From NCBI RefSeq assembly GCF_007858475.1, contig NZ_VIGX01000007.1, positions 186,001 to 250,000 on the forward strand: DNA of 64,000 nt, in the 5' to 3' direction. This stretch comes from Tsukamurella conjunctivitidis. Its GTDB lineage: Bacteria; Actinomycetota; Actinomycetes; Mycobacteriales; Mycobacteriaceae. The position numbers and the translations under genes are program-made. Within the stretch, counting starts at the first letter, position 1; every line of letters begins with the position of its first letter. Of the stretch, positions 28,674-46,135 are shown one piece after another. The notes below the pieces were generated by a model. It searched no databases and was not told where the DNA came from. It saw nothing but the letters and a program-made list of their open reading frames with translations.

Positions 28674-29111
28674 TCAGACTCGGAGGACGCAGAGTTGCGA
28701 GAGGTCGAAGACCGTCCAGGGCGGGGAACCGCGCGCGAGGGCGGCGTGCGTCGCCGCGCTGGTGTCGGGAGCGCCGTCGGCGAAGGGTAGGACGGCGACG
28801 AGCGAGGGGGCGCCGACCGACTTGTGCACGACGACGGTGCCGGCGCAGTCGTGCGCCTCGTGGTCGTGGACGGCGTCGACGGTCTGCTTCTGCACCGTTT
28901 GGCCGTGCTCGGCCCGATCCGCCGCGGTGCCGCCTTCGTCGGCGGCGGCCGCATCGCGGGGCGCGCCGTGATGGCCGGTCGGCGAGGCCGTCGCGGGGGC
29001 CATCGCCATGAGAGGCATGCCCAGGTGCATGAGGAGGACGGCGAGCGCCAGAAGGATGGCCGTCGTGGCCGCCGCCCTTCCGCTCCGCATCGCCTGCACG
29101 CGCCGAATCAT
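28674..29111 (-). CDS. DUF6153-like small membrane or secreted protein
   Basis: A 145-residue protein with one N-terminal hydrophobic segment (ATTAILLALAVLLMHLGMPL). A His/Asp/Glu-rich middle (HDHEAHDC) and the conserved end PPWTVFDLSQLCVLRV match proteins annotated DUF6153 beside DUF305 genes. The histidine-rich stretch fits metal binding. ATG 29111 is used; ATG 29090 is an alternative. The function is not known and the family assignment is from the C-terminal motif only. Confidence 0.7.
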   Translation of the reverse strand: MIRRVQAMRSGRAAATTAILLALAVLLMHLGMPLMAMAPATASPTGHHGAPRDAAAADEGGTAADRAEHGQTVQKQTVDAVHDHEAHDCAGTVVVHKSVGAPSLVAVLPFADGAPDTSAATHAALARGSPPWTVFDLSQLCVLRV

Positions 29112-31128: not shown

Positions 31129-31716
31129 CTAGAACTTGCTGCTCCAGTAGTCCCAGAACTGCACGCCGATCAGGGCGAGCACCACGATGTACCAGAGCAG
31201 CACGAGGGCGGCCAGTCCCTGCTTGACGGGCTGCGTCGCCTTCGGGCCGAGCGCGGCGGCGACGGCGGTCGCGAGCACGATCGGCATGATCGTCCAGACG
31301 AGCATGCACCACAGGCAGAGCGCGTGGATGACGAACAGGCTCGAGTAGATCAGGAAGATCACGAGCGCGAGACCGGCCGCGGCCCCGATCGCGAGGCCCG
31401 TCCAGAACCAACGGGGGAGGGCGACCCCGCCGAGGGCGAGCACCCCGGCGACGATCACCACGGAGAACGACGCGATCCCGATCAGCGGGTTGGGGAAGCC
31501 GAACAGCGAGCCCTGCCAGGACTGCATCACGGAGCCGCAGGAGATCGTCGGGTCCAGGCTGCAGCCGGGGACGAAGTTCGGATCCTCGAGCAGCTTGATC
31601 TTGTCGATGGTCAGCATCGCCGAGGCCAGCAGCCCCAGCACACCGGTCACGAGCAGCAGGATCCCGGTGATGCGACGATTCTCTGTGGCGGGCACGGTGG
31701 CCTCGGTGGTGGACAC
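31129..31716 (-). CDS. Vitamin K epoxide reductase (VKOR) family protein
   Basis: A 195-residue protein with about five membrane helices. The redox-active pair is CLWC in HALCLWCMLVW, and the loop cysteines are SCGSVMQSW and GCSLDP. Bacterial VKOR replaces DsbB: it reoxidises a DsbA-like protein with quinone during disulfide formation in exported proteins. No DsbA neighbour is present here. GTG 31716 is supported by a TACCAT box 7 nt upstream. Confidence 0.92.
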   Translation of the reverse strand: MSTTEATVPATENRRITGILLLVTGVLGLLASAMLTIDKIKLLEDPNFVPGCSLDPTISCGSVMQSWQGSLFGFPNPLIGIASFSVVIVAGVLALGGVALPRWFWTGLAIGAAAGLALVIFLIYSSLFVIHALCLWCMLVWTIMPIVLATAVAAALGPKATQPVKQGLAALVLLWYIVVLALIGVQFWDYWSSKF

Positions 31717-31723
31717 GTCAGCG

Positions 31724-31729
31724 ATGGTA
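31724..31729 (-). promoter_or_regulatory. -10-like TACCAT for VKOR gene
   Basis: On the minus strand TACCAT ends 7 nt before GTG 31716, with no Shine-Dalgarno in between, consistent with a leaderless mRNA. Confidence 0.45.
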
Positions 31730-31757
31730 GGCGACGAACCTGAGCGCGCCGTCACCG

Positions 31758-34124
<2,367 letters not shown>

Positions 34125-34240: not shown

Positions 34241-34729
34241 TCAGTCGTTGTACTGGGAGAGCGAGACCTCGCCCCACTTGTACCGGTTGCCCGGAGTGAG
34301 GGTCGCGCGACCGAAGCCCTCGAGGTCCTCGAAGCCGCTCCAGTTGTCCTCGCCGTCGGTGAGTCCGAAGGCGTAGACATCGGTGCCGAGCAGGTGCTGG
34401 ACACCCACCGTGTAGCCCTCGACGTTGGTGACCAGCATCGGCATGCGGTGCATGTCGACCATGAGGTCGTTGTCCTCGGGGTTGAAGGAGATCAGCTTCT
34501 CGCCGGAAGCGGACAGCTGCCACTTGATCTTGTCGACGGGGCCGTCCTTATCGGAGAAGTCCAGCACCTCGGCGAGCCGCAGCGCGCAATCCGCACTGTA
34601 GGTGGCGATCAACGAGCCGGTCTGGCGCACCCGGCCCTCGCGCTCGACGCGCTGAGCACGGGCTTCCTCATCGTGCTTGCGAACGAGTTCTTGTGCGCGC
34701 TTGAGGACGGAGAGGTCTTCATTGGTCAT
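34241..34729 (-). CDS. Uncharacterised protein with charged N-terminal helix
   Basis: I do not recognise this 162-residue protein. The first ~40 residues are a charged helix (LKRAQELVRKHDEEARAQRV), and the rest looks like mixed alpha/beta with no catalytic motif, ending GEVSLSQYND. ATG 34729 is preferred because TATTGT stands 7 nt before it (leaderless pattern) and codon bias drops sharply just upstream. The reading frame nevertheless stays open to an ATG at 35143 with a strong ribosome-binding site, which would make a 300-residue product. Confidence 0.65.
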   Translation of the reverse strand: MTNEDLSVLKRAQELVRKHDEEARAQRVEREGRVRQTGSLIATYSADCALRLAEVLDFSDKDGPVDKIKWQLSASGEKLISFNPEDNDLMVDMHRMPMLVTNVEGYTVGVQHLLGTDVYAFGLTDGEDNWSGFEDLEGFGRATLTPGNRYKWGEVSLSQYND

Positions 34730-35143
34730 GGTGTTAACAATAGCGTTATCTGACCACCGATGGTTGACGTTGGCCCCAGGAAGTCGCGTGTCGGCACCGG
34801 ATTCTGCTGTGAACCGATGCCGACCGCCGATGGGGTGCAGCACGCGCGTCGCGGCGGCGTGCGCGAAACGATTACCGGCCGTGGCGATCTGACGGAAGTT
34901 GACGAGTGAGCCGCGGTGCGCCGCACGGCGGGCCGCCCGCGGGTTCGGCGCACTATCGATCATGTCAATCAAATCGATCATTCTTGAAATCGAATCTATG
35001 GCCATTTGGCGCGTATCGGAGCTCGCCAATACAGACGTCGGTCGAGCAAGGTCGAGCCCGGGGAGGCTGAATTGCACGGTGTCCTCGAGCGAGACGTCCA
35101 CTGCGCGCGCGGCCGCTGCTTCCTCACGACTGTGCCTGCCCAT
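34730..35143 (-). other. In-frame open extension with its own strong start (possible longer N-terminus)
   Basis: From ATG 35143, AAGGAGGAG lies directly upstream, and the frame runs without a stop into the 34241 gene. The first ~75 residues (MGRHSREEAAAARAVDVSLE, later SISRMIDLIDMIDSAP) look protein-like, but the ~35 codons before 34729 use many A/T-ending codons. This is either the real N-terminus of a 300-residue protein or a separate short ORF in the same frame. Confidence 0.4.
34737..34742 (-). promoter_or_regulatory. -10-like TATTGT before ATG 34729
   Basis: On the minus strand TATTGT ends 7 nt before ATG 34729. The region is unusually AT-rich for this genome and includes GTTAAC. Confidence 0.5.
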
Positions 35144-35209: not shown

Positions 35210-35253
35210 AGGAGACCATCGGTTGCTATTGCAATAGCAACCGATGGTCTCCT
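35210..35253. repeat. 44-bp perfect palindrome
   Basis: The 22-bp arm ending TCGGTTGCTATTG is followed with no spacer by its exact reverse complement, centred between 35231 and 35232. It lies 53 bp beyond the end of the SRPBCC gene on the minus strand. As RNA it folds into a long hairpin followed by TACTCTTTATC, so a terminator is possible. As DNA it is exceptional, because such spacerless palindromes are usually unstable. Confidence 0.85.
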
Positions 35254-35306
35254 CCGCGCCCGCTTCGCCGCTCACCGGGAATGGAGGGCGCTCCGCGGTG
35301 GCCGGG

Positions 35307-35816
35307 TCAGGTTGGTGTGTTGAGCTGGTCGAAGTGCGCACGAGTGTCGCGCACGAGACGACCCACGATGAAGGGCATCGCCGCACGGGTCATGATCGCG
35401 GGAGCGGCAACGGCGACCACGAACTCCCACCGGACACGACAACCCCCGGGGGCGGCGCTCACCGTGATCCGTTCGCCGAGGCGCCGGATTCCCGGGACCG
35501 TCGCGGAGGTGACGCTGAACGCGGCCTGTCCTCTTCCCATTCGAGCGTCGGGCTTCTCCCACACGAAGAACTCCTCGTGCACGCCGGCGCCGGGCGCCAT
35601 CGTGACCTCGCGCGTCGCCCCCGTGCAGTCACGGCGCTGAGAAACCCACCGGGTGCTTCGCGCCAGCGAGAACCACCTCTGCGGGCGCTCCTGGTGCAGT
35701 TCAGCCCAGAAGACGTCCGGCGCGACGGGGAGCTCGAATTCGGTCTCGTAGAATCCGCTCGAGCGTGATCGTGCGTCGAACATGTCGCTCGTGACTCGCT
35801 GCGGCGTGAATCTCAT
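35307..35816 (-). CDS. SRPBCC family protein
   Basis: A 169-residue single-domain protein of the START/Bet v1-like (polyketide cyclase) fold. FYETEFELPVAPDVFWAELH opens it, the middle has AFSVTSATVPGIRRLGERIT and CRVRWEFVVAVA, and the C-terminal helix is MPFIVGRLVRDTRAHFDQL. Such proteins bind hydrophobic ligands or act as cyclases or dehydratases. AAGGAG precedes ATG 35816. It is the last gene of the flavoprotein cluster, 112 bp after the MBL-fold gene, and could bind or convert a pathway intermediate. Confidence 0.78.
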   Translation of the reverse strand: MRFTPQRVTSDMFDARSRSSGFYETEFELPVAPDVFWAELHQERPQRWFSLARSTRWVSQRRDCTGATREVTMAPGAGVHEEFFVWEKPDARMGRGQAAFSVTSATVPGIRRLGERITVSAAPGGCRVRWEFVVAVAAPAIMTRAAMPFIVGRLVRDTRAHFDQLNTPT

Positions 35817-35928
35817 GGTGTGGCTTCTCTCCTTGTGATGATCGGTCGGGACGACCGGTACTCGTTCGAGGTCACTCGAGTAGGTGCTGTGGTCGCGAGG
35901 CACGTCCGGCGGATGGGCGCGGCTCGAC

Positions 35929-37059
35929 TCAAGCGACCCGATGGCTGATCCGACGGTGCGCGAACGTCGGCGCCGTGCCGGGACTCGCCGGATTCGCGGT
36001 GAGCTCGCTCGACGGGAAGAACTGAAGGAATCGCCCGTCCCTCTGTGCGTGGTCCACGAGCGTCTTCTCGACGACCACCGAGTTGTACTGCTCGAACGTG
36101 GTCTCGATCGTGTTCCCGTTGATGACGACCTCGTGTCCCCAGGACCGCGCCGACCGTGCCAATCCAGGAATCTTCGAGGCCGCGGGGGTGAGACATTCCG
36201 CGGCGATGGCGTTCTCGCTGACCGCCCAGATTCCCGTGTCGGTGTTGAGCACGAGAGATTGGTTGCCGACCGCGTGCCCCGGCGTCGCGATGAGAGCGAC
36301 ACCCGGCCCCAGGACGACGCTGCCGTCGAGAGCGAGAATCTTCTCAGGGGGCAGATCGACAAAGGTGCGCGGCTGATACCAGGGACGTTGGAACGGATGC
36401 AGGTCGGCCATCGCATCGAGCTCGACGCGTTGTGCGAGCAGCTTCGCATTCGGGAAGGCCGCTGACACGGGGGCGGTGGGACTGATGTCCGCCTGCGGGC
36501 GGGTGGTACCGAGCCACCGGCGCACATCCTGGGTGTGGAGGTGGTCGAACGCCAGATAGTCGACGTCCTCCGGCTCGACACCGGCCTCCCGGCACGCCGA
36601 GAGGACGTCGTTGTGCTCAGTCACGAAGACTTTTCGAGCGATCCGTGGAGTGAATCGCTCGAGTTCGGCGAAGTAGGGCGTGTACGAGTCCAGCTCGTGG
36701 TCGCTCGGTTCGAAGAGCATCGTCTTCGTGCTGCCGTCGGAATCGGTCCACCGGATGATCAACATCCGGTTGGTAATGGTGAGGAACGGCGTCGGAACGA
36801 AGGAGCCGCGAAACAGGCCGTACCGAGTGGGGTACGGCAACGAGATCAAGTCCTTCGTGGCGACGAGGTCCGGCGTACCCGATGTCAGGAAATCCGAGCG
36901 GAATGCCACAGCGGCATCGCGTGCCAACCGCAACCGTGCACCGAATCCACCGGATGCGGAGTGCGTCCGGTCGAAATGGCCGATCGAGGTGAATCCGGCT
37001 GCGATGTCCGAGCGGGGAATGGAGAGGGTGTCGTTTTCGATGAAGTCGGCGATGGCCAC
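35929..37059 (-). CDS. MBL-fold metallo-hydrolase-like protein with atypical metal motif
   Basis: A 376-residue protein with a metallo-beta-lactamase fold core from about residue 95. The first metal motif reads DHLHTQD, where HxHxDH is expected, so the aspartate is shifted and the following histidine missing. The second is TPGHAVGNQSLVL, with its histidine. The segment where Asp usually bridges the metals reads AVSENAIAAE. Activity may be altered. It is 40 bp downstream of the OYE gene and likely in the same operon. Lactone or thioester hydrolysis would suit the flavin monooxygenase upstream, as inference. Confidence 0.78.
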   Translation of the reverse strand: MAIADFIENDTLSIPRSDIAAGFTSIGHFDRTHSASGGFGARLRLARDAAVAFRSDFLTSGTPDLVATKDLISLPYPTRYGLFRGSFVPTPFLTITNRMLIIRWTDSDGSTKTMLFEPSDHELDSYTPYFAELERFTPRIARKVFVTEHNDVLSACREAGVEPEDVDYLAFDHLHTQDVRRWLGTTRPQADISPTAPVSAAFPNAKLLAQRVELDAMADLHPFQRPWYQPRTFVDLPPEKILALDGSVVLGPGVALIATPGHAVGNQSLVLNTDTGIWAVSENAIAAECLTPAASKIPGLARSARSWGHEVVINGNTIETTFEQYNSVVVEKTLVDHAQRDGRFLQFFPSSELTANPASPGTAPTFAHRRISHRVA

Positions 37060-37099
37060 GTCAAATCTCCTGGAGAGGGAAGGGAACGGACGGAGCGAG

Positions 37100-38335
37100 C
37101 TATCGCGGGATGGATACCTGCTTGCCTGCGGCCACGGTGATGCGCGTCAGCGAGCGGGCGAGCGTACGCAGACCGGGCCGGCGCTGAGGGGTCTTCCCCG
37201 CCGCGATCCTGTGCAACTGATTGTTGTGCCACGCGAGCTCCAGGTACCCGTCCGCGGGACGGTAGCCGACGCGCGGCGCGCTTCGCGGGAGCTCCGGCAC
37301 GACACCGCTGAGCAGATGTCGCGGATAGTCGGGGACGAAGGTCAGCGGACGTCCCACGCCGATCACGTCGACGATGCCTTCCATCAGTATCCGCTCCATC
37401 GCCCGCGGGTCGCGCAGGCCACCGGTCAACATGATCGGCACCGCCGACGAGGCCCGGATGCGCTGAGCGAACTCGACGAAGTAGCCCCGGCCGTCCGCAC
37501 CGGTGCTCTGCCCTGCGGCGACGCCCGTCATGGCGGGCTGCTCGTATCCACCACCGCTGATCTCGAGAAGGTCGATTCCGGCCTCGCCGAGGGCCAGGGC
37601 CACCGTCAGCGCCTGGTCGGTGTCGAACCCACCGCGCAGGAAGTCCGTCGAGTTCAGCTTGACCGAGACGGGAACGCCGGCGCCGACTGCGGCGCGCACC
37701 GCTGCAACGGTCTCGAGCAGCAGCCGCATGCGTCCGGCCTCGTCGCCGCCCCATTCGTCGGTGCGGAGGTTCGCGATCGGGGAGAGGAACTGAGAGAGCA
37801 GGTATCCGTGGGCGGCGTGCACCTGGACACCGTCGAAGCCGCCCGCCACGGCGAGCTCCGCGGTTCGTGCGAACTTCGCGATCATGCCCTTGATGTCAGC
37901 GGCCGAGAGTTCGCGCGGTTTCCGGAGGTTGTAGCCGGGCACCGCACTACGTCGCGCCGACGGCGCGACGGGACGACGGTTGAACGGTGACACCGCGACT
38001 TTGCCGGGGTGGTTGATCTGGGCCCAGATCTTGGCATGGGTTCCCGACGTCGCCCCCGTCCATCGGCGGATCGCATCCAGGTCCCGCGCATCGTCCAGGA
38101 TCACGTTGCCGGGTTCGGTGAGGGCCCCGCGATCGATCATCACGTTCCCCGAAAGGAGGAGGCCGGCGCCGCCCGCGGCCCAGACCGCGTACAGGCGGCG
38201 CAGTTCGTCGCTCGCGGTGCCGTCGCGCTTCGCCAATTGCTCGCTCATGGCGGCCTTGGCGATTCGATTCTGCAGGGTCTGACCACACGGCAGAACCAGG
38301 GTCTCGGACAGGCGGGGTTGGGTCATCATGCTCAC
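37100..38335 (-). CDS. Old Yellow Enzyme-type NADH:flavin oxidoreductase
   Basis: A 411-residue FMN TIM-barrel enzyme. It opens with LVLPCGQTLQNRIAKAAMSE; WAQINHPGK and VQVHAAHGYLLSQFLSP (catalytic-site His and FMN contacts) and MLTGGLRDPRAME (phosphate site) are typical. No 4Fe-4S cysteine cluster is present, and the length fits the single-domain class rather than 2,4-dienoyl-CoA reductase. Such enzymes reduce activated C=C bonds, for example enones. GTG 38335 overlaps the upstream stop by 4 nt. Confidence 0.9.
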   Translation of the reverse strand: MSMMTQPRLSETLVLPCGQTLQNRIAKAAMSEQLAKRDGTASDELRRLYAVWAAGGAGLLLSGNVMIDRGALTEPGNVILDDARDLDAIRRWTGATSGTHAKIWAQINHPGKVAVSPFNRRPVAPSARRSAVPGYNLRKPRELSAADIKGMIAKFARTAELAVAGGFDGVQVHAAHGYLLSQFLSPIANLRTDEWGGDEAGRMRLLLETVAAVRAAVGAGVPVSVKLNSTDFLRGGFDTDQALTVALALGEAGIDLLEISGGGYEQPAMTGVAAGQSTGADGRGYFVEFAQRIRASSAVPIMLTGGLRDPRAMERILMEGIVDVIGVGRPLTFVPDYPRHLLSGVVPELPRSAPRVGYRPADGYLELAWHNNQLHRIAAGKTPQRRPGLRTLARSLTRITVAAGKQVSIPR

Positions 38336-39096
38336 AGCACTCTCGGTCGCAGGCGGGTCAGGGAGAACAGGGGAGTGAGGGGGCGCAGTGGCACCGGCGG
38401 GATCCCGGCGGACAGGTTCACGCGATGCAAGCGCGCTTCGACGACGGATCCCAGTCCCATACGGTCGAGGGGATCGCGATCAGTCCCACCGATCCGGAAG
38501 TCGTCGAGGTGGACGGCACGAGTCTCGATGGGGTGCTCACCAGGAGTGAAACCGATGATCCTGGGCAGCGCGAGGCCGAGGGTGCCCGAGACGTTCCGAT
38601 GGGGACGACCGAGGATCGGCGGAGCATCCTCCAGCACCGCGCCGATCCGGCCGCTCATACTGATCAGGTCCGTACCGCGCCGTGACGCCGTGGCCGAGAT
38701 GAAGGGGGCCTCGAGCTTCCATTCGATCTCGCCGAGCTTCTTCGGGTATCCGAGTAGCTCGCGGCCCAGTATCAGGGCCACGTCGTCGTCGAGGATCATC
38801 CACGGGCAATGGATGCCGGTGCGGCCACCCACCGTCTTGATGTGCACGAACAGCCCCGCTTCGTGGTAGACCGAGCCGTAGGTGCAGTGCGGGAACCACG
38901 CGGTGAAGAGGTCGGCACGCCCAGGGGTGACGGCGTGCACACCGGCGGGAAGCCAGGACTGCATCGTCGGCACATCGACCTCGACCGTCGCGGAGAAGTA
39001 GTGCGCGTCGCGGTACAGCAGACCGCGCGGAGGTGCGAGCGCGAGCGCTTGCCGCACGCTGCCACGCACGCCGTAGTCCGCGCCCCGCCCCCTCAT
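38332..39096 (-). CDS. Acetoacetate decarboxylase-like protein
   Basis: A 254-residue protein of the ADC superfamily. The Schiff-base lysine motif is clear in RELLGYPKKLGEIEW, and the conserved glutamates and HCPWMILDDDVALILG segment precede it. Superfamily members decarboxylate beta-keto acids or carry out aldol/dehydration chemistry through a lysine imine. ATG 39096 overlaps the SDR stop by 4 nt. Its place between a ketoreductase-type SDR and an ene-reductase fits processing of a beta-keto acid or enone intermediate. Confidence 0.85.
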   Translation of the reverse strand: MRGRGADYGVRGSVRQALALAPPRGLLYRDAHYFSATVEVDVPTMQSWLPAGVHAVTPGRADLFTAWFPHCTYGSVYHEAGLFVHIKTVGGRTGIHCPWMILDDDVALILGRELLGYPKKLGEIEWKLEAPFISATASRRGTDLISMSGRIGAVLEDAPPILGRPHRNVSGTLGLALPRIIGFTPGEHPIETRAVHLDDFRIGGTDRDPLDRMGLGSVVEARLHRVNLSAGIPPVPLRPLTPLFSLTRLRPRVL

Positions 39097-39893
39097 CGGA
39101 GATCTCCGTAGGCCTTGCGGAGGATCGGGTTGAGAATGCTCCGCGGCGCGTACTTGCCGCCGAGATCCTGCAGCTTGGCGGTTGCGCCGGGCACCACCCG
39201 GCGCCGGCCGGCGGCAGCGCCCCGCACCGCCGCTTCTGCGGCGGTTTCCGCAGTGACCCAAGCAAATCCGGGGAGGTGCTGCTCGATCGCACCGAGATTC
39301 GAGACCTCGGCGAACTCGGTGCGCACCGGACCGGGCGCGAGCAGCGTGCAGGTGACACCCGTACCCACCAACTCACCGTGAAGCGATTCGGACAGGGTGT
39401 TGGCGAACGCCTTGGTCGCCGCGTACGTCGCGTTGTTCGGACTCGGCTGGTTCCCGGCAGTCGAACCCGTCACGAGAATCACCCCGGAGCCGCGGGCCAC
39501 GAGAGCGGGCAGAAGTCCGACGACCAGGTCGTGGACCGCGACCACGTTGAGGTCGACCTGCTCTCGCTCACGCTGCGGATCGAGCTCGAGGATGCTGCCG
39601 TAACTGGCGAAGCCCGCATTCAAGCAGATTCCACTGACGTCGATCGTGTCGAGCTGTCGTATCAGCTCCGCCCTCGCAGCGGCGTCGGCGAGGTCGCAGG
39701 GCACGACGTCGACGGTCACCACGTAGCGAGCGGACAACCTGTCCGCCAGTGCGCGCAGACGGTCTTCGCGACGCGCGACGAGGATCAGGGAATGTCCGCG
39801 GCGCGCGAACGCCTCGGCCAGGGCCTCGCCGATGCCGCTGGAGGCGCCGGTGACCACGATCCGGGCGTGGGGGGTGGGAGTGGGCAGGCTCAT
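39093..39893 (-). CDS. Short-chain dehydrogenase/reductase
   Basis: A 266-residue classical SDR. The cofactor motif is VTGASSGIGEALAEA, the NAG strand is LNAGFASYG, and the active site is GSTAGNQPSPNNATYAATKA with Ser, Tyr and Lys. The arginine-rich VARREDRL after strand 2 favours NADP. It is encoded between the monooxygenase (4-nt ATGA overlap) and the ADC-like gene (4-nt overlap). It would reduce a ketone or oxidise an alcohol in the pathway. Confidence 0.92.
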   Translation of the reverse strand: MSLPTPTPHARIVVTGASSGIGEALAEAFARRGHSLILVARREDRLRALADRLSARYVVTVDVVPCDLADAAARAELIRQLDTIDVSGICLNAGFASYGSILELDPQREREQVDLNVVAVHDLVVGLLPALVARGSGVILVTGSTAGNQPSPNNATYAATKAFANTLSESLHGELVGTGVTCTLLAPGPVRTEFAEVSNLGAIEQHLPGFAWVTAETAAEAAVRGAAAGRRRVVPGATAKLQDLGGKYAPRSILNPILRKAYGDLR

Positions 39894-41248
39894 GACGGGA
39901 TGGTCTCCTCGGGCTGGGCGATTCGGGTGGCAGGGGGCTCCGGGAACGGAGGCGCGGCGGATTGGAACGCAGGGGAGTGGGGGCGGAGCACCGATTTCGC
40001 GACCAGGACTCGGAGAACCTGCCGCAGGATCCGGATGCGGCCGAGGATCTCCGCCGAGCCGGCGAGCATCGTCGCGCGCGCCGGGATCCAGCGGGCCATC
40101 ACATCCGAGAGCGGTTCGGTGAAGTGTGTCTGAGCCGGGATGGCTTCAGCGAGGAACGCCGAGCCGTGCGAGATGATCCTGCCGGCACCGGACCGCGGGG
40201 CTACGAGGCCCATCAGGTAGAGGTTGGCGAACCGCGGGGCGAGGACGTGCTCGACGAGCAGGGGGTCGCCGTTCTCCCAGACGAACATCGACTCATCGAG
40301 CATCGGGAACCGAGTCCGAAATCCGGTAGCCCAGACGACCGTGTCGTACTCGGTCGCGGTGCCGTCCACGAAGTGGACGACGGCACCGTCGAACCGCTCG
40401 ATCTCGGGCCTCGGACGCACTCTGCCGTGCCTGAGCGCGTACATGAGCGACGAGTTGACTGTTACGTCGCGGGTGAACAGCTTGTGATCGGGGCGCTGAA
40501 GCCCGTAACGCTTGTAGTTCCCGTAACTCAACCGCAGCATCACCTTGAATCCCGCTCGCTGCAGGGGCATCGGTAGCCACAGGCGGTCGAATTCCGAGGC
40601 GGGTACTCCGAAAATCGTCTTGGGGATGAACCAGTACCCGCGCCGCATCGAGATGTCTGCCGCGCCGAAGGTCGCCGATGCCTCGACGGCGATATCGCTG
40701 GCCGAATTCCCCGCGCCGACCACCAGTACGCGACCTCCGTCGCCGAGATCCGCCGGTCGCTTGTAATCCTTGGAGTGGAGCTGCCACCCCGTGAACACGC
40801 CGGGGTACTGAGGGAGGTGCCGCTCCCAGTAGTGGCCGTTCGCGACGACGACCGCCTTGTAGCGTCGCTCCTCGCCCGAGGCGAGCCGAACGATCCACCC
40901 CGCCATCCCCGAGGTGTCGACGGGGCGGACCTCGACGACTTCCGTGTTGAACTCCAGGTGCGTCGCGAGCCCGAAATGGTCGACATAGGACTGCAGGTAG
41001 GCCAACATCTGGACCCGGCTGGGAAACGTCGGATAGTCCTGCGGCATGGGGAATTCGACGTACTGGGTCGATGCCTTCGAACTGATCAGATGGGTAGAGT
41101 CGTAGACGCCATGAGACCAGTTGCCCCCGATCCTGTCGGTGGCCTCGACCTGGTCGTACGGAACGCCCGCCCGTTTCAGCGCACCCGCGACGCCATTGCC
41201 GACGTAGCCCGCTCCGATGACGCACACGCGATCGCTTCGATTCTCCAC
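39890..41248 (-). CDS. FMO-type flavin-dependent monooxygenase
   Basis: A 452-residue class B flavoprotein. The FAD motif is VIGAGYVGNGVAGALKRAG, the NADPH motif is VVGAGNSASDIAVEAS, and the fingerprint FTGWQLHSKDYK fits FxGxxxHxxxY of flavin-containing monooxygenases, not the WP/WD of Baeyer-Villiger enzymes. VVWATGFRTRFP is the C-terminal ATG motif. Start GTG 41248 has GAGGAG 9 nt upstream. It leads the operon and is divergent from a TetR gene, across a 34-bp palindrome. Confidence 0.9.
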   Translation of the reverse strand: MENRSDRVCVIGAGYVGNGVAGALKRAGVPYDQVEATDRIGGNWSHGVYDSTHLISSKASTQYVEFPMPQDYPTFPSRVQMLAYLQSYVDHFGLATHLEFNTEVVEVRPVDTSGMAGWIVRLASGEERRYKAVVVANGHYWERHLPQYPGVFTGWQLHSKDYKRPADLGDGGRVLVVGAGNSASDIAVEASATFGAADISMRRGYWFIPKTIFGVPASEFDRLWLPMPLQRAGFKVMLRLSYGNYKRYGLQRPDHKLFTRDVTVNSSLMYALRHGRVRPRPEIERFDGAVVHFVDGTATEYDTVVWATGFRTRFPMLDESMFVWENGDPLLVEHVLAPRFANLYLMGLVAPRSGAGRIISHGSAFLAEAIPAQTHFTEPLSDVMARWIPARATMLAGSAEILGRIRILRQVLRVLVAKSVLRPHSPAFQSAAPPFPEPPATRIAQPEETIPS

Positions 41249-41338
41249 TGTCTCCAGCTCCTCATCCGATGGACCGGAACATCGATTCCGGTCGGATCCT
41301 GCGGAACCCGCGAGGGTTGAGACGGAAACCGCCTCCAA

Positions 41339-41372
41339 AGTTACACAGAGTGTAGCTACACTGACTGTAACT
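41339..41372. promoter_or_regulatory. 34-bp TetR operator-like palindrome
   Basis: AGTTACA-n3-AGTGTAG is followed by CTACACT-n3-TGTAACT; only the two 3-bp blocks fail to match. It lies between the monooxygenase start (41248) and the tetR start (41427), and is the obvious site for a TetR protein pair. Confidence 0.85.
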
Positions 41373-41426
41373 CTGCAAGTCGTAGGATTCGACCGACGAC
41401 TCGAGCAGTCGAGAGGAGCGTGTGGG

Positions 41427-42044
41427 ATGAACGATGCGACGACAGGACGTCGGCGCGCGTACGCACCGCGAATGGCGCCGGAGGACCGACGGGAGCATCT
41501 CCTCGACGCCGTCCTGACGGTCATTGTCGATCACGGAGTGCACAAGGTGTCGATCGAGACGGTCGCCGAAGCGGCTCACGTCTCCCGGCCCGTGGTGTAC
41601 AAGCACTTCGAGGATTCGGCGGCCCTGCTGCGAGCATCGCTGGCCCGAGAGGAAGCGCGCGCAATCGCCCAGTGCTACGACGCCGCACGGCGGGCGCGAA
41701 CGCAGGGAGGGCAGGACGACGTTGCACTGGCCCTGTACGCGAACCTACTGGACATGTTCACCGACTCGCCCGACCTCTGGCGAGCCATCCTGCAACTGGT
41801 CGACAGCGCGACGCCCGCGTTCCGGCTGGCCGTCGACCGCGGCCGCGAGCAGGCAGCAGCAATCGCTGAAAACGTGTTGACGACGGACACACCGGACGAC
41901 GGTGCCGACCACCAGCTCTACGCAAGGATGATCGTGGCGATGGTGATCGAATCCGGCAGGCTACTCCTGACCCGGCCCGACACCTTCACCAAGGACCGCC
42001 TGATCTCCGGTGCGAGCCGTGCGATCCACGCCTACCAGCCGTGA
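41427..42044 (+). CDS. TetR/AcrR family regulator of the flavoprotein operon
   Basis: A 205-residue protein with the N-terminal HTH ETVAEAAHVSRPVVYKHFED at about residues 45-65 and a helical ligand-binding domain. AGAGGAGCG precedes ATG 41427. It is divergent from the six-gene cluster and sits beside the 34-bp palindrome, so it probably represses both itself and that operon until a substrate or intermediate binds. The ligand is unknown. A second palindrome begins just after the stop. Confidence 0.88.
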   Translation: MNDATTGRRRAYAPRMAPEDRREHLLDAVLTVIVDHGVHKVSIETVAEAAHVSRPVVYKHFEDSAALLRASLAREEARAIAQCYDAARRARTQGGQDDVALALYANLLDMFTDSPDLWRAILQLVDSATPAFRLAVDRGREQAAAIAENVLTTDTPDDGADHQLYARMIVAMVIESGRLLLTRPDTFTKDRLISGASRAIHAYQP

Positions 42045-42045
42045 T

Positions 42046-42062
42046 TACGTCACTGTGACGTA
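42046..42062. repeat. 17-bp perfect palindrome after tetR
   Basis: TACGTCAC-t-GTGACGTA starts 2 nt after the tetR stop codon. There is no T-tract and the stem has only a 1-nt centre, so it resembles an operator more than a terminator. Confidence 0.6.
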
Positions 42063-42461: not shown

Positions 42462-42477
42462 TCAGTTGTCGATCCAG
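42440..42477. repeat. 19-bp tandem duplication at a gene 3' end
   Basis: Two adjacent 19-bp units (42440-42458 and 42459-42477) differ at one base (CAGTCGT versus CAGTTGT). On the minus strand each reads GGCTGGATCGAC..., so the last codons and stop of the gene ending at 42462 are present twice in a row. Confidence 0.85.
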
Positions 42478-42770
42478 CCGTCGTACCGATGCGCGTCGCG
42501 CTCCGGGTCGTGGAGACGTCGACTCCGCATCAACAGCCCGACCCCGGCAGCCAGTACCGGAAGGGCGATCAGCAGGAGGACGATCGGCTGCATCCCCCGC
42601 TCCCGGAGAACGATCAGGTGTACAGCAGCGATCCCGGCGACCGAGGCGACGGTGATCACCCCGACGATCGGCGCGGCGCCCACGTGAAAGACGCGGCCGA
42701 TCCGGCCGCAGGCAGCCAGCAGGAGTCGCGCGACCACATACACAAGGACGGCGATGACGCGGTACACCAT
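42462..42770 (-). CDS. Small membrane protein of unknown function
   Basis: A 102-residue protein with three hydrophobic segments: VIAVLVYVVARLLLAACG, APIVGVITVASVAGIAAVHL and QPIVLLLIALPVLAAGVGLL. It ends in the charged tail RSRRLHDPERDAHRYDGWID. No family is recognised. ATG 42770 starts at the first hydrophobic helix; an in-frame ATG further upstream within AT-rich sequence is possible. The stop lies within the tandem duplication. Upstream, 42780-42825 is notably AT-rich and could hold its promoter. Confidence 0.6.
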   Translation of the reverse strand: MVYRVIAVLVYVVARLLLAACGRIGRVFHVGAAPIVGVITVASVAGIAAVHLIVLRERGMQPIVLLLIALPVLAAGVGLLMRSRRLHDPERDAHRYDGWIDN

Positions 42771-42921
42771 CACGTCGTCGATTATACATGCATATATTCG
42801 CATGTACATACATACTGCGGAGGGGCTCAGGCACCGACACCGATAGGTGACCCGCGGTTCTCCGAATCGAAGCGAGCACGCACGAACGATCCGGGAAGAT
42901 GACGGTGACCGGAGGTACTGC

Positions 42922-45478: not shown

Positions 45479-46135
45479 ATGCTCACCACGATCCGGCCCG
45501 ACCTCGTCGAGACTCCCATGTTCTCCCCGTTCCCGGGACTCACCACCCACGCGTACCTCTGGACGCCTGCGAACGGCGGCAACATCCTCTTCTACTCCCC
45601 CGGCGACGACGCGGAATTCGACGCCCTTGCCGACCGCGGGGGCGTCACCCACCAGTACCTGAGCCATCAGGACGAGGCGGGCCCGATGCTGCGGGCCGTC
45701 GCGGAGCGGTTCGGCGCGGTCCTTCACGCCCCGGCGCGTGACCTCGCGGGCATCACGGAGCACGCCACCCCGGGCGTCCTGCTCGCGGATCGCACCGTCG
45801 ACGCGAACGGCGTCGAGGTCATCCCGACGCCCGGCCACACCCCGGGGAGCACGTCCTTCCTCGTCATCGGCGTTGACGGTGCGCGGTACCTGTTCACCGG
45901 CGACACCCTGTTCCGCGCCGCGGACGGCCGGTGGAACGCCGGGTACATCCCCGGCATGAGCGACGGCGAGTCCCTGCTCGCGAGCCTGGAACTGCTCGGC
46001 GGCCTCGAGCCCGATCTCGTGGTCTCCAGTGCCTTCGCGGGCGACCGCGGTGCCCACGCCGTCGATCCCGCCGGCTGGCGGCACACCGTCGCCGAGACGG
46101 CCGCGCGCCTCGCATCCGGCGTCCTGCGCCGGTGA
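45479..46135 (+). CDS. MBL-fold metallo-hydrolase
   Basis: A 218-residue protein with a degenerate first motif YLSHQDEAGP, then TPGHTPGSTSFLV with a conserved histidine and FTGDTLFRA with the bridging aspartate. It resembles small glyoxalase II-like hydrolases. GAGAGGA stands 7 nt before ATG 45479. HxHxDH is reduced to HQDE, so the metal site may bind a single ion. The substrate is unknown. Confidence 0.78.
   Translation: MLTTIRPDLVETPMFSPFPGLTTHAYLWTPANGGNILFYSPGDDAEFDALADRGGVTHQYLSHQDEAGPMLRAVAERFGAVLHAPARDLAGITEHATPGVLLADRTVDANGVEVIPTPGHTPGSTSFLVIGVDGARYLFTGDTLFRAADGRWNAGYIPGMSDGESLLASLELLGGLEPDLVVSSAFAGDRGAHAVDPAGWRHTVAETAARLASGVLRR

Follow-up and report, generated by a model that had tools for sequence, protein, structure and literature searches.

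In a 64,000-nucleotide stretch of the Tsukamurella conjunctivitidis genome (5.07 Mb; assembly GCF_007858475.1, contig NZ_VIGX01000007.1, positions 186,001-250,000), here called the window and used for all coordinates, we analyzed six minus-strand genes together with a divergent regulator gene of the TetR family. Four of the encoded enzymes, a group B flavin monooxygenase (FMO), a short-chain dehydrogenase/reductase (SDR), an acetoacetate-decarboxylase-fold protein (ADC-like) and an Old Yellow Enzyme-type reductase (OYE), recur with a divergent regulator in other actinobacteria, and such a gene group is referred to below as the cassette. The remaining two genes encode a lactonase-like protein of the metallo-beta-lactamase (MBL) fold and an SRPBCC protein. 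The features of the locus are as follows.

35239-42045 (approximate extent): insertion, from alignment to the cassette-free Tsukamurella genome G310 (locus L063)
35307-35816, minus strand: SRPBCC protein, 169 aa; Pfam Polyketide_cyc2, 33.3 bits (gathering score 27.4)
35929-37059, minus strand: MBL-like protein (lactonase-like, MBL fold), 376 aa; accessory member
37100-38335, minus strand: OYE, FMN reductase, 411 aa, single domain; Pfam Oxidored_FMN, 156.6 bits
38332-39096, minus strand: ADC-like protein, 254 aa; Pfam ADC, 91.1 bits
39093-39893, minus strand: SDR, 266 aa; Pfam adh_short; Ser144-Tyr157-Lys161
39890-41248, minus strand: FMO, 452 aa, GTG start; motif FTGWQLHSKDYK; Pfam FMO-like, 150.6 bits
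41339-41372 (core 41341-41370): putative operator dyad, two abutting palindromes
41427-42044, plus strand: divergent TetR-family regulator, likely start ATG at 41427 with AGGAG upstream; Pfam TetR_N, 38 bits (gathering score 24)

The FMO/SDR, SDR/ADC and ADC/OYE junctions overlap by exactly 4 nt each, and gaps of 40 bp and 112 bp separate OYE from MBL and MBL from SRPBCC, an arrangement that an earlier note on this DNA had described with the same overlaps and gaps. The family calls of that note for FMO, SDR, ADC-like, OYE, SRPBCC and TetR were borne out as well, all six proteins scoring above the gathering score of their Pfam models (FMO-like, adh_short, ADC, Oxidored_FMN, Polyketide_cyc2 and TetR_N).

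Genomes of other species were scanned with exact peptide patterns of the ADC-like protein, a search that reaches close relatives only. The scan yielded 19 loci, 18 of which hold the cassette (L022 does not), and together with the window and two further Tsukamurella genomes, G238 (L026) and G305 (L029), the total came to 21 cassettes; loci L001-L003, L023-L025, L027, L028 and L030 duplicate counted cassettes and were excluded from the counts. The hosts belong to 11 genera (Tsukamurella, Gordonia, Nocardioides, Mycolicibacterium, Mycobacterium, Mycobacteroides, Streptomyces, Flexivirga, Nocardia, Hoyosella and Antrihabitans), and FMO, SDR, ADC-like, OYE and a divergent regulator are the content common to all 21. 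The order FMO-SDR-ADC-OYE was found in 15 cassettes, while the other six (four Nocardia, Antrihabitans and M. montefiorense) have the order FMO-OYE-SDR-ADC; in L013 the contig end falls within OYE. The earlier note had made a conserved order with a TetR gene among sequenced actinobacteria the test of its proposal, and the 21 genomes of 11 genera speak for it, although the order is neither unique to the window genome nor the only one. Its six-gene operon was upheld in part: the conserved unit is the four enzymes, MBL being optional and SRPBCC private to the window.

The cassette is rare, because the ADC-like protein was found in only 3 of 298 genomes sampled from the order (at E <= 1e-20) and in only 2 of 394 from the class (at E <= 1e-50), all of them Tsukamurella, the window genome included; by this protein, the nearest named relatives of the window genome are likewise Tsukamurella. 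Within the genus, 6 of 16 genomes carry the cassette. Pairwise identities of the FMO, SDR, ADC-like and OYE proteins correlate with each other (r 0.70-0.89; for every pair, none of 2000 permutations reached the observed value) across the 16 of 21 cassettes present in all four alignments, in a test that treats kin sequences as independent when common ancestry alone would raise r, and in which the FMO of L008, read in one frame only, has too low an identity. The FMO alignment comprised 19 sequences, L007 being left out because its stretch extended beyond the natural stop and L018 because of an in-frame stop. That of the ADC-like protein comprised 21, consisting of 20 cassettes plus the L022 relative, with L026 omitted for an in-frame stop; that of OYE comprised 19, with L013 omitted for its contig end and L020 for extending beyond the natural stop; and that of the SDR comprised all 21 cassettes.

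A counterpart of the TetR protein was present in 19 of the 20 other cassettes (28-69% identical). The 34-bp palindrome that the earlier note had placed before the TetR gene was recovered as the dyad at 41339-41372, which matches its own complement at 28 of 34 positions and scores 10.4, against a maximum of 8.4 in 100 simple base shuffles of the region. It consists of two 15-bp palindromes, TTACA-N5-TGTAG abutting CTACA-N5-TGTAA, and its general form across cassettes is YTACA-N5-TGTAG followed by CTACA-N5-TGTAR. At two mismatches or fewer, this N5 form lies in the regulator-FMO gap of 14 of 21 cassettes, where L004 and L005 have as many as four units in tandem, and a 14-bp N4 version occurs in five more (L010, L011, L012, L013 and L016; two separated units in L012), so that conserved CTACA-N4/5-TGTAG palindromes and a TetR gene stand together in 19 of 21. 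The two cassettes without the putative operator carry another regulator, a TetR protein only 28% identical in L014 and a PadR-type protein in L029. A reversed N5 control pattern gave 10 matches in 22 sequences, all at five mismatches as compared with two or fewer for the counted sites (one site in L015, outside the regulator-FMO gap, is also at five), and a reversed N4 control gave none in the seven loci tried. In the window genome the putative operator is the sole site at three mismatches or fewer, a tolerance at which the reversed control gives one match too; for a variant of the operator pattern, the reversed control had no match in that genome. Across the 16 Tsukamurella genomes at two mismatches or fewer, the pattern was found in five, each time at the cassette, with no site in the 10 cassette-free genomes and no control match in any. 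Since in the genus the putative operator is confined to cassettes and other regulators appear where it is absent, regulator and operator travel with the enzymes. The TetR protein would be expected to bind the dyad and repress, and the TetR control proposed in the earlier note is backed as far as linkage and a conserved candidate operator in 19 of 21 cassettes go. No sigma-70-like promoter was found in the TetR-FMO intergenic region.

The extent of the acquired DNA was evident from the cassette-free genome G310, whose alignment to the window breaks off after 35238 and picks up again at 42046; the intervening DNA is 76 bp long there as compared with 6,807 bp in the window. By this alignment, the cassette is a discrete insertion of ~6.8 kb. 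By inspection, a similarly short gap lies at this site in G300 and in G191, which has its own cassette elsewhere, and G308 has ~2.1-2.4 kb of other DNA there. At least nine of the 15 other Tsukamurella genomes are collinear with ~6 kb of left flank (starting at 29000 and ending between 35026 and 35238); among the matches listed, ~5 kb is collinear in at least three of the remaining ones and parts are present in the last three. Judged by flanking genes in common, the six Tsukamurella cassettes occupy five sites. Cassette DNA is 79, 79, 74 and 79% identical to the window in G191, G299, G301 and G238, and core flanks are 89, 88, 84 and 80% identical, such that the cassette is more divergent than the core in three of the four genomes and without clear difference in G238. 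The proteins of Gordonia hydrophobica (79-81%) are nearer to those of the window than are those of T. pseudospumae (SDR 75%, ADC 74%). The earlier note had suggested acquisition from codon use. The GC content at third codon positions (GC3) of the seven cassette genes, 0.81-0.845 compared with a median of 0.932 for 53 other genes called by a home-made script, agrees with this, as does the insertion relative to the empty site; however, the immediate neighbors outside the insert are equally low (34241-34981, 0.818; 42462-42809, 0.802), and codon bias alone therefore fails to mark its edges. Overall, the conserved order, the putative operator and the empty site sustain the claim of a TetR-linked, horizontally acquired and conserved oxidoreductive operon.

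No transposase was noticed in the part of the locus examined, where no dedicated search was made. PLSDB held no close relative of the ADC-like protein (six records, identity up to 33%). A phage or anti-phage origin was considered and rejected: five proteins had no PADLOC match, three had no PHROGs match, and the ADC-like protein had no relative on viral contigs.

Several features of the surrounding DNA were also recorded. The left flank conserved in the genus contains a VKOR gene (31129-31755), a UvrA-like ABC ATPase gene (31758-34124) and a gene without Pfam match (34241-~35143). Just upstream of the conserved left-flank gene, a perfect 44-nt palindrome lies at 35210-35253; relatives keep a TTGC-ATTGCAATA-like core, and in G310 the arms are different yet complementary again, which gives it the look of a conserved hairpin or operator that belongs to the flank rather than to the cassette. 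A second palindrome, TACGTCACTGTGACGTA at 42046-42062, immediately follows the TetR stop and marks the right edge of the empty site; G310 retains it, and G191 and G300 have slightly altered forms. An ordinary Lactamase_B protein encoded nearby at 45479-46135 (Pfam 39 bits) is apparently unrelated.

For the comparison of flanks, genes were called with a home-made program and clustered at 38% identity. Beside cassettes of different genera, only one other family came up repeatedly, a second FMO-like protein located ~5 kb upstream of TetR in L004 and L005 and ~4 kb downstream of ADC in Antrihabitans (L017); the family, at L017:13476-14957 and L030:3-1424, occurs at differing positions in Antrihabitans and two Tsukamurella. 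L015 has an acyl-CoA dehydrogenase in common with L022, which has no cassette, and L020 a short-chain-dehydrogenase-type gene in common with a Shinella plasmid. Among single neighbors, L004 and L020 have a P450, L010 a steroid-dehydrogenase-family gene, L012 and L015 acyl-CoA dehydrogenases and L016 an AMP ligase. Redox and acyl functions are frequent around the cassettes, but the flanks compared have no constant theme.

The FMO carries both marks of group B, an FMO-like domain and the motif FxGxxxHxxx[YF][KR], which is present in 19 of 19 aligned cassette FMOs (L007 and L018 not being in the alignment). It shares these with type II enzymes such as SMFMO, which we take to be structure 4a9w, and with the 8z12-8z17 monooxygenase, from which it differs by operon context, by fusion to the SDR and by its remote relationship (the closest solved chain, 8z17, matches at E 1e-62 and 215 bits). 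Assignment as a type I Baeyer-Villiger monooxygenase was rejected, as the tryptophan of the fingerprint FxGxxxHxxxW is found in 0 of 19. There is no N-terminal extension, the domain beginning at residue 7. According to the excerpted text of PMC7570161 and PMC10028610, FxGxxxHxxx[YF][KR] is the FMO signature. In Flexivirga (L014), Hoyosella (L016) and Tsukamurella G305 (L029), a single open reading frame of 696-705 aa encodes the FMO and SDR domains together; in L008 the reading likewise continues from FMO into SDR without a stop, but because of a frame change within FMO it was not counted as a fusion. Because of this natural fusion in three genomes, FMO and SDR very likely work together in coupled steps.

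The Ser-Tyr-Lys residues of the SDR are kept in 21 of 21 cassettes. The window SDR matches the NCBIfam model for mycolate reductase (mycolate_SDR; CmrA, NF040690) over its full length with 326 bits, yet stays under the equivalog cut-off of 380, and five other cassette SDRs fall with it between 306 and 360 bits, below the cut-off in six of six tested. A separate SDR copy in the genome scores 428 bits; a role of the cassette SDR as the housekeeping mycolate reductase was accordingly rejected.

The ADC-like protein was placed in the fold of acetoacetate decarboxylase (ADC) by both Pfam and Foldseek, the latter on an AlphaFold model (mean pLDDT 73) that matches 3bgt, MppR (4jmc) and the aldolase-dehydratase 6eej about equally at 14-19% identity. 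For ADC itself, we take Lys115/Lys116 to be the Schiff-base pair, with Glu76, and Arg29 to be the substrate arginine, Glu61 being a further characteristic residue. In alignments to 3bh2/3bgt, the cassette protein shares with this superfamily (ADC 3bh2, MppR 4jmc, 6eej) the fold, the lysine pair (Lys119, Lys120) and Glu79, all kept in the 21 aligned sequences (20 cassettes and L022). It differs from ADC in having Ala31 at the arginine position in 21 of 21. The Glu61 position aligns to Thr65 or Leu63, depending on which of two methods is used, and an acidic residue (D/E62, 21 of 21) lies one to three residues off. MppR is described as an aldolase of the acetoacetate decarboxylase-like superfamily in the excerpted text of PMC7820114, and carbon-carbon bond chemistry other than decarboxylation is therefore conceivable for the ADC-like protein. 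In Rhodococcus sp. G-MC3 (L022:5511-9756), a relative (51%) follows two FAD-dependent FMO-like genes, with several SDR-like stretches nearby and no cassette; this gene group possibly represents a related pathway. The OYE contains the Oxidored_FMN domain, and its closest solved chain is 7fev (E 3e-53). The mycofactocin-system OYE 2 was rejected as its identity (TIGR03997, 183.6 bits against a cut-off of 793, N-terminal half only).

The MBL gene stands at the end of the unit in some cassettes; across the 21 it is intact in seven, damaged in three, absent from ten and at a contig end in one. Of the damaged copies, that of L011 retains just residues 1-86, that of L015 shifts frame close to the C-terminus and that of L026 has an internal deletion. 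At only 37% identity, the L009 protein may have been recruited separately. The MBL-fold call of the earlier note held with no Pfam match at E <= 0.01: NCBIfam lactonase matches are weak and far under cut-off, AiiA matches in a PDB sequence search (E 1.6e-6), and Foldseek matched lactonases at E 5.9e-10 (probability 1.00) on a low-confidence model (mean pLDDT 53.6), too weak for placing metal ligands; the 50 matches listed have query TM-scores of 0.25-0.41. These profile, PDB and Foldseek matches together support the MBL fold. With AiiA and 4-pyridoxolactonase the protein also shares a TPGH motif; it differs from them in having HLHTQD in place of the canonical dimetal motif HxHxDH, and in its relatives in Leptospira and other actinobacteria. 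HLHxQD was found in the nine sequences of alignment A1 and in six of seven further actinobacterial regions (it was not located in L061), and this MBL family occurs in 8 of 395 other actinobacterial genomes sampled. None of the seven examined regions contains the cassette, nor do the stretches examined around family members on a Rhodococcus koreensis plasmid and a Leptospira interrogans replicon. On the latter (L032:7809-9735), an HLHxQD protein (44% identical) directly precedes an SDR gene 27% identical to the cassette SDR. SRPBCC has no counterpart in the other cassettes, and its relatives elsewhere in all 16 Tsukamurella genomes are only 33-38% identical.

Taken together, we interpret the locus as a mobile, substrate-inducible cassette for catabolism or detoxification of a hydrophobic keto/enone compound, with a probability of roughly 0.6. 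It appears to have spread as a unit, together with its own switch, among soil and mycolate-bearing actinobacteria. Because the SDR is related to mycolate reductase, the likely substrate, a hydrophobic keto/enone, perhaps has a beta-keto or beta-hydroxy acyl part; use for growth and detoxification are indistinguishable on these data. In the mechanism we propose, the TetR protein would occupy the tandem 15-bp palindromes in the gap that separates its gene from FMO, repressing in both directions until a pathway substrate or intermediate releases it. FMO and SDR, as their natural fusion suggests, would act jointly on one compound. From its kept residues, the ADC-like protein would use Lys119 to form a Schiff base with the ketone or beta-keto acid so produced, and would cleave or condense a carbon-carbon bond, by decarboxylation or retro-aldol reaction, and OYE, as expected for its family, would reduce an activated C=C bond. 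The MBL-fold protein, where present, might hydrolyze an ester or lactone. The chemistry of the earlier note (oxygenate, oxidize, decarboxylate, reduce, hydrolyze) is only partly backed, since the FMO motif is not that of a Baeyer-Villiger monooxygenase, the ADC-like protein has no arginine at the substrate position of genuine decarboxylases and HxHxDH is missing from the MBL protein.

Several observations weigh against this interpretation, besides the close-relative reach of the locus search and the limits of the co-variation test given above. Two of the six genes, MBL and SRPBCC, lie outside the conserved unit. The FMO motif is that of heteroatom-oxidizing FMOs and the oxygenation step is therefore uncertain, and the ADC-like protein may not decarboxylate. 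Repression by TetR is assumed, and the best NCBIfam model for this protein is FasR, an activator (51 bits against a cut-off of 330). In the flanks compared, no transporter, CoA ligase or beta-oxidation gene recurs, as a growth pathway would want. Core genes are apparently damaged in 3 of 21 cassettes: in T. pseudospumae (L008:6902-10968), FMO and OYE are each split across two frames, by decay or assembly error; in M. montefiorense (L018:5509-6888), FMO has an in-frame stop at about residue 138, by decay or error; and in G238 (L026:8416-10745), ADC has an in-frame stop and the middle of MBL (window residues 48-316) is deleted. Either the cassette is dispensable or decaying there, or the assemblies are wrong; such damage also fits an accessory function.

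Degradation of a cyclic ketone of terpenoid or steroid-like type, as for carvone or cyclohexanone, is a doubtful alternative. Here SDR would convert an alcohol to an enone, OYE would saturate it, FMO would form a lactone by Baeyer-Villiger oxidation, MBL would open the lactone and ADC would remove CO2, so that each step has a fitting enzyme type. The carveol-carvone and cyclohexanone operons likewise gather a dehydrogenase, an enone reductase, a flavin monooxygenase and a hydrolase in one inducible unit; the cassette differs in the missing Baeyer-Villiger tryptophan, in having an ADC-like enzyme in its core and in its optional hydrolase. Lactone opening by MBL cannot be essential, as 13 of 21 cassettes lack the gene or have only a damaged copy. 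The excerpted text of PMC10028610 bears on both sides: some type II FMOs with the same motif, such as JsFMO, can oxidize ketones, but the ketone-active ones have the N-terminal extension that the cassette FMO lacks, and short ones are chiefly sulfoxidizing.

We consider it unlikely that the cassette serves lipid or cell-envelope tailoring, in which the mycolate-reductase-like SDR and its partners would modify a beta-keto acyl lipid of the host. The full-length match of all six tested SDRs to mycolate reductase speaks for such a role, as does the match of the regulator to FasR, which is linked to fatty acid synthase, and by general taxonomy most hosts belong to mycolate-bearing genera. However, these SDRs all stay below the cut-off that a separate genomic copy exceeds, and the patchy presence in Tsukamurella is ill-suited to a basic envelope function. 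Cassettes are also found in Nocardioides, Flexivirga and Streptomyces, which are not known to have mycolates.

Quite improbable is a set of tailoring enzymes for a small specialized metabolite of the host. FMO, SDR, OYE and SRPBCC proteins commonly serve as tailoring enzymes, but 30 selected flanking genes included no assembly-line or terpene-synthase family by Pfam (three had no match), genomic contexts vary between genomes, and the pattern scan showed no second operator in the window genome. A chance neighborhood of unrelated genes, for which the private SRPBCC gene is the sole point in favor, is refuted for the four-enzyme core by the conserved order in 21 cassettes at differing genomic sites.

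Within the preferred reading of a mobile catabolic or detoxification cassette, a more specific form is possible and tentative: a new pathway in which the fused or partnered FMO-SDR would make a ketone, a non-decarboxylating ADC-fold aldolase would cleave it through a lysine Schiff base, the TetR/operator pair would travel along, and a new MBL subfamily, with HLHxQD as its metal site, would have been added in some hosts. In the full-text literature searched on the gene set, judged by the titles listed and with most subscription journals outside its scope, no title pointed to such an operon, and none was found on structure entry 8z12. The analysis turns an anonymous gene group into a defined unit, with a four-enzyme core, a putative operator sequence confined to cassettes in the genus, an empty site and FMO-SDR fusions. 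The identity of the TetR inducer would name the substrate, and the ADC-fold and HLHxQD MBL members may widen two enzyme superfamilies toward new chemistry.

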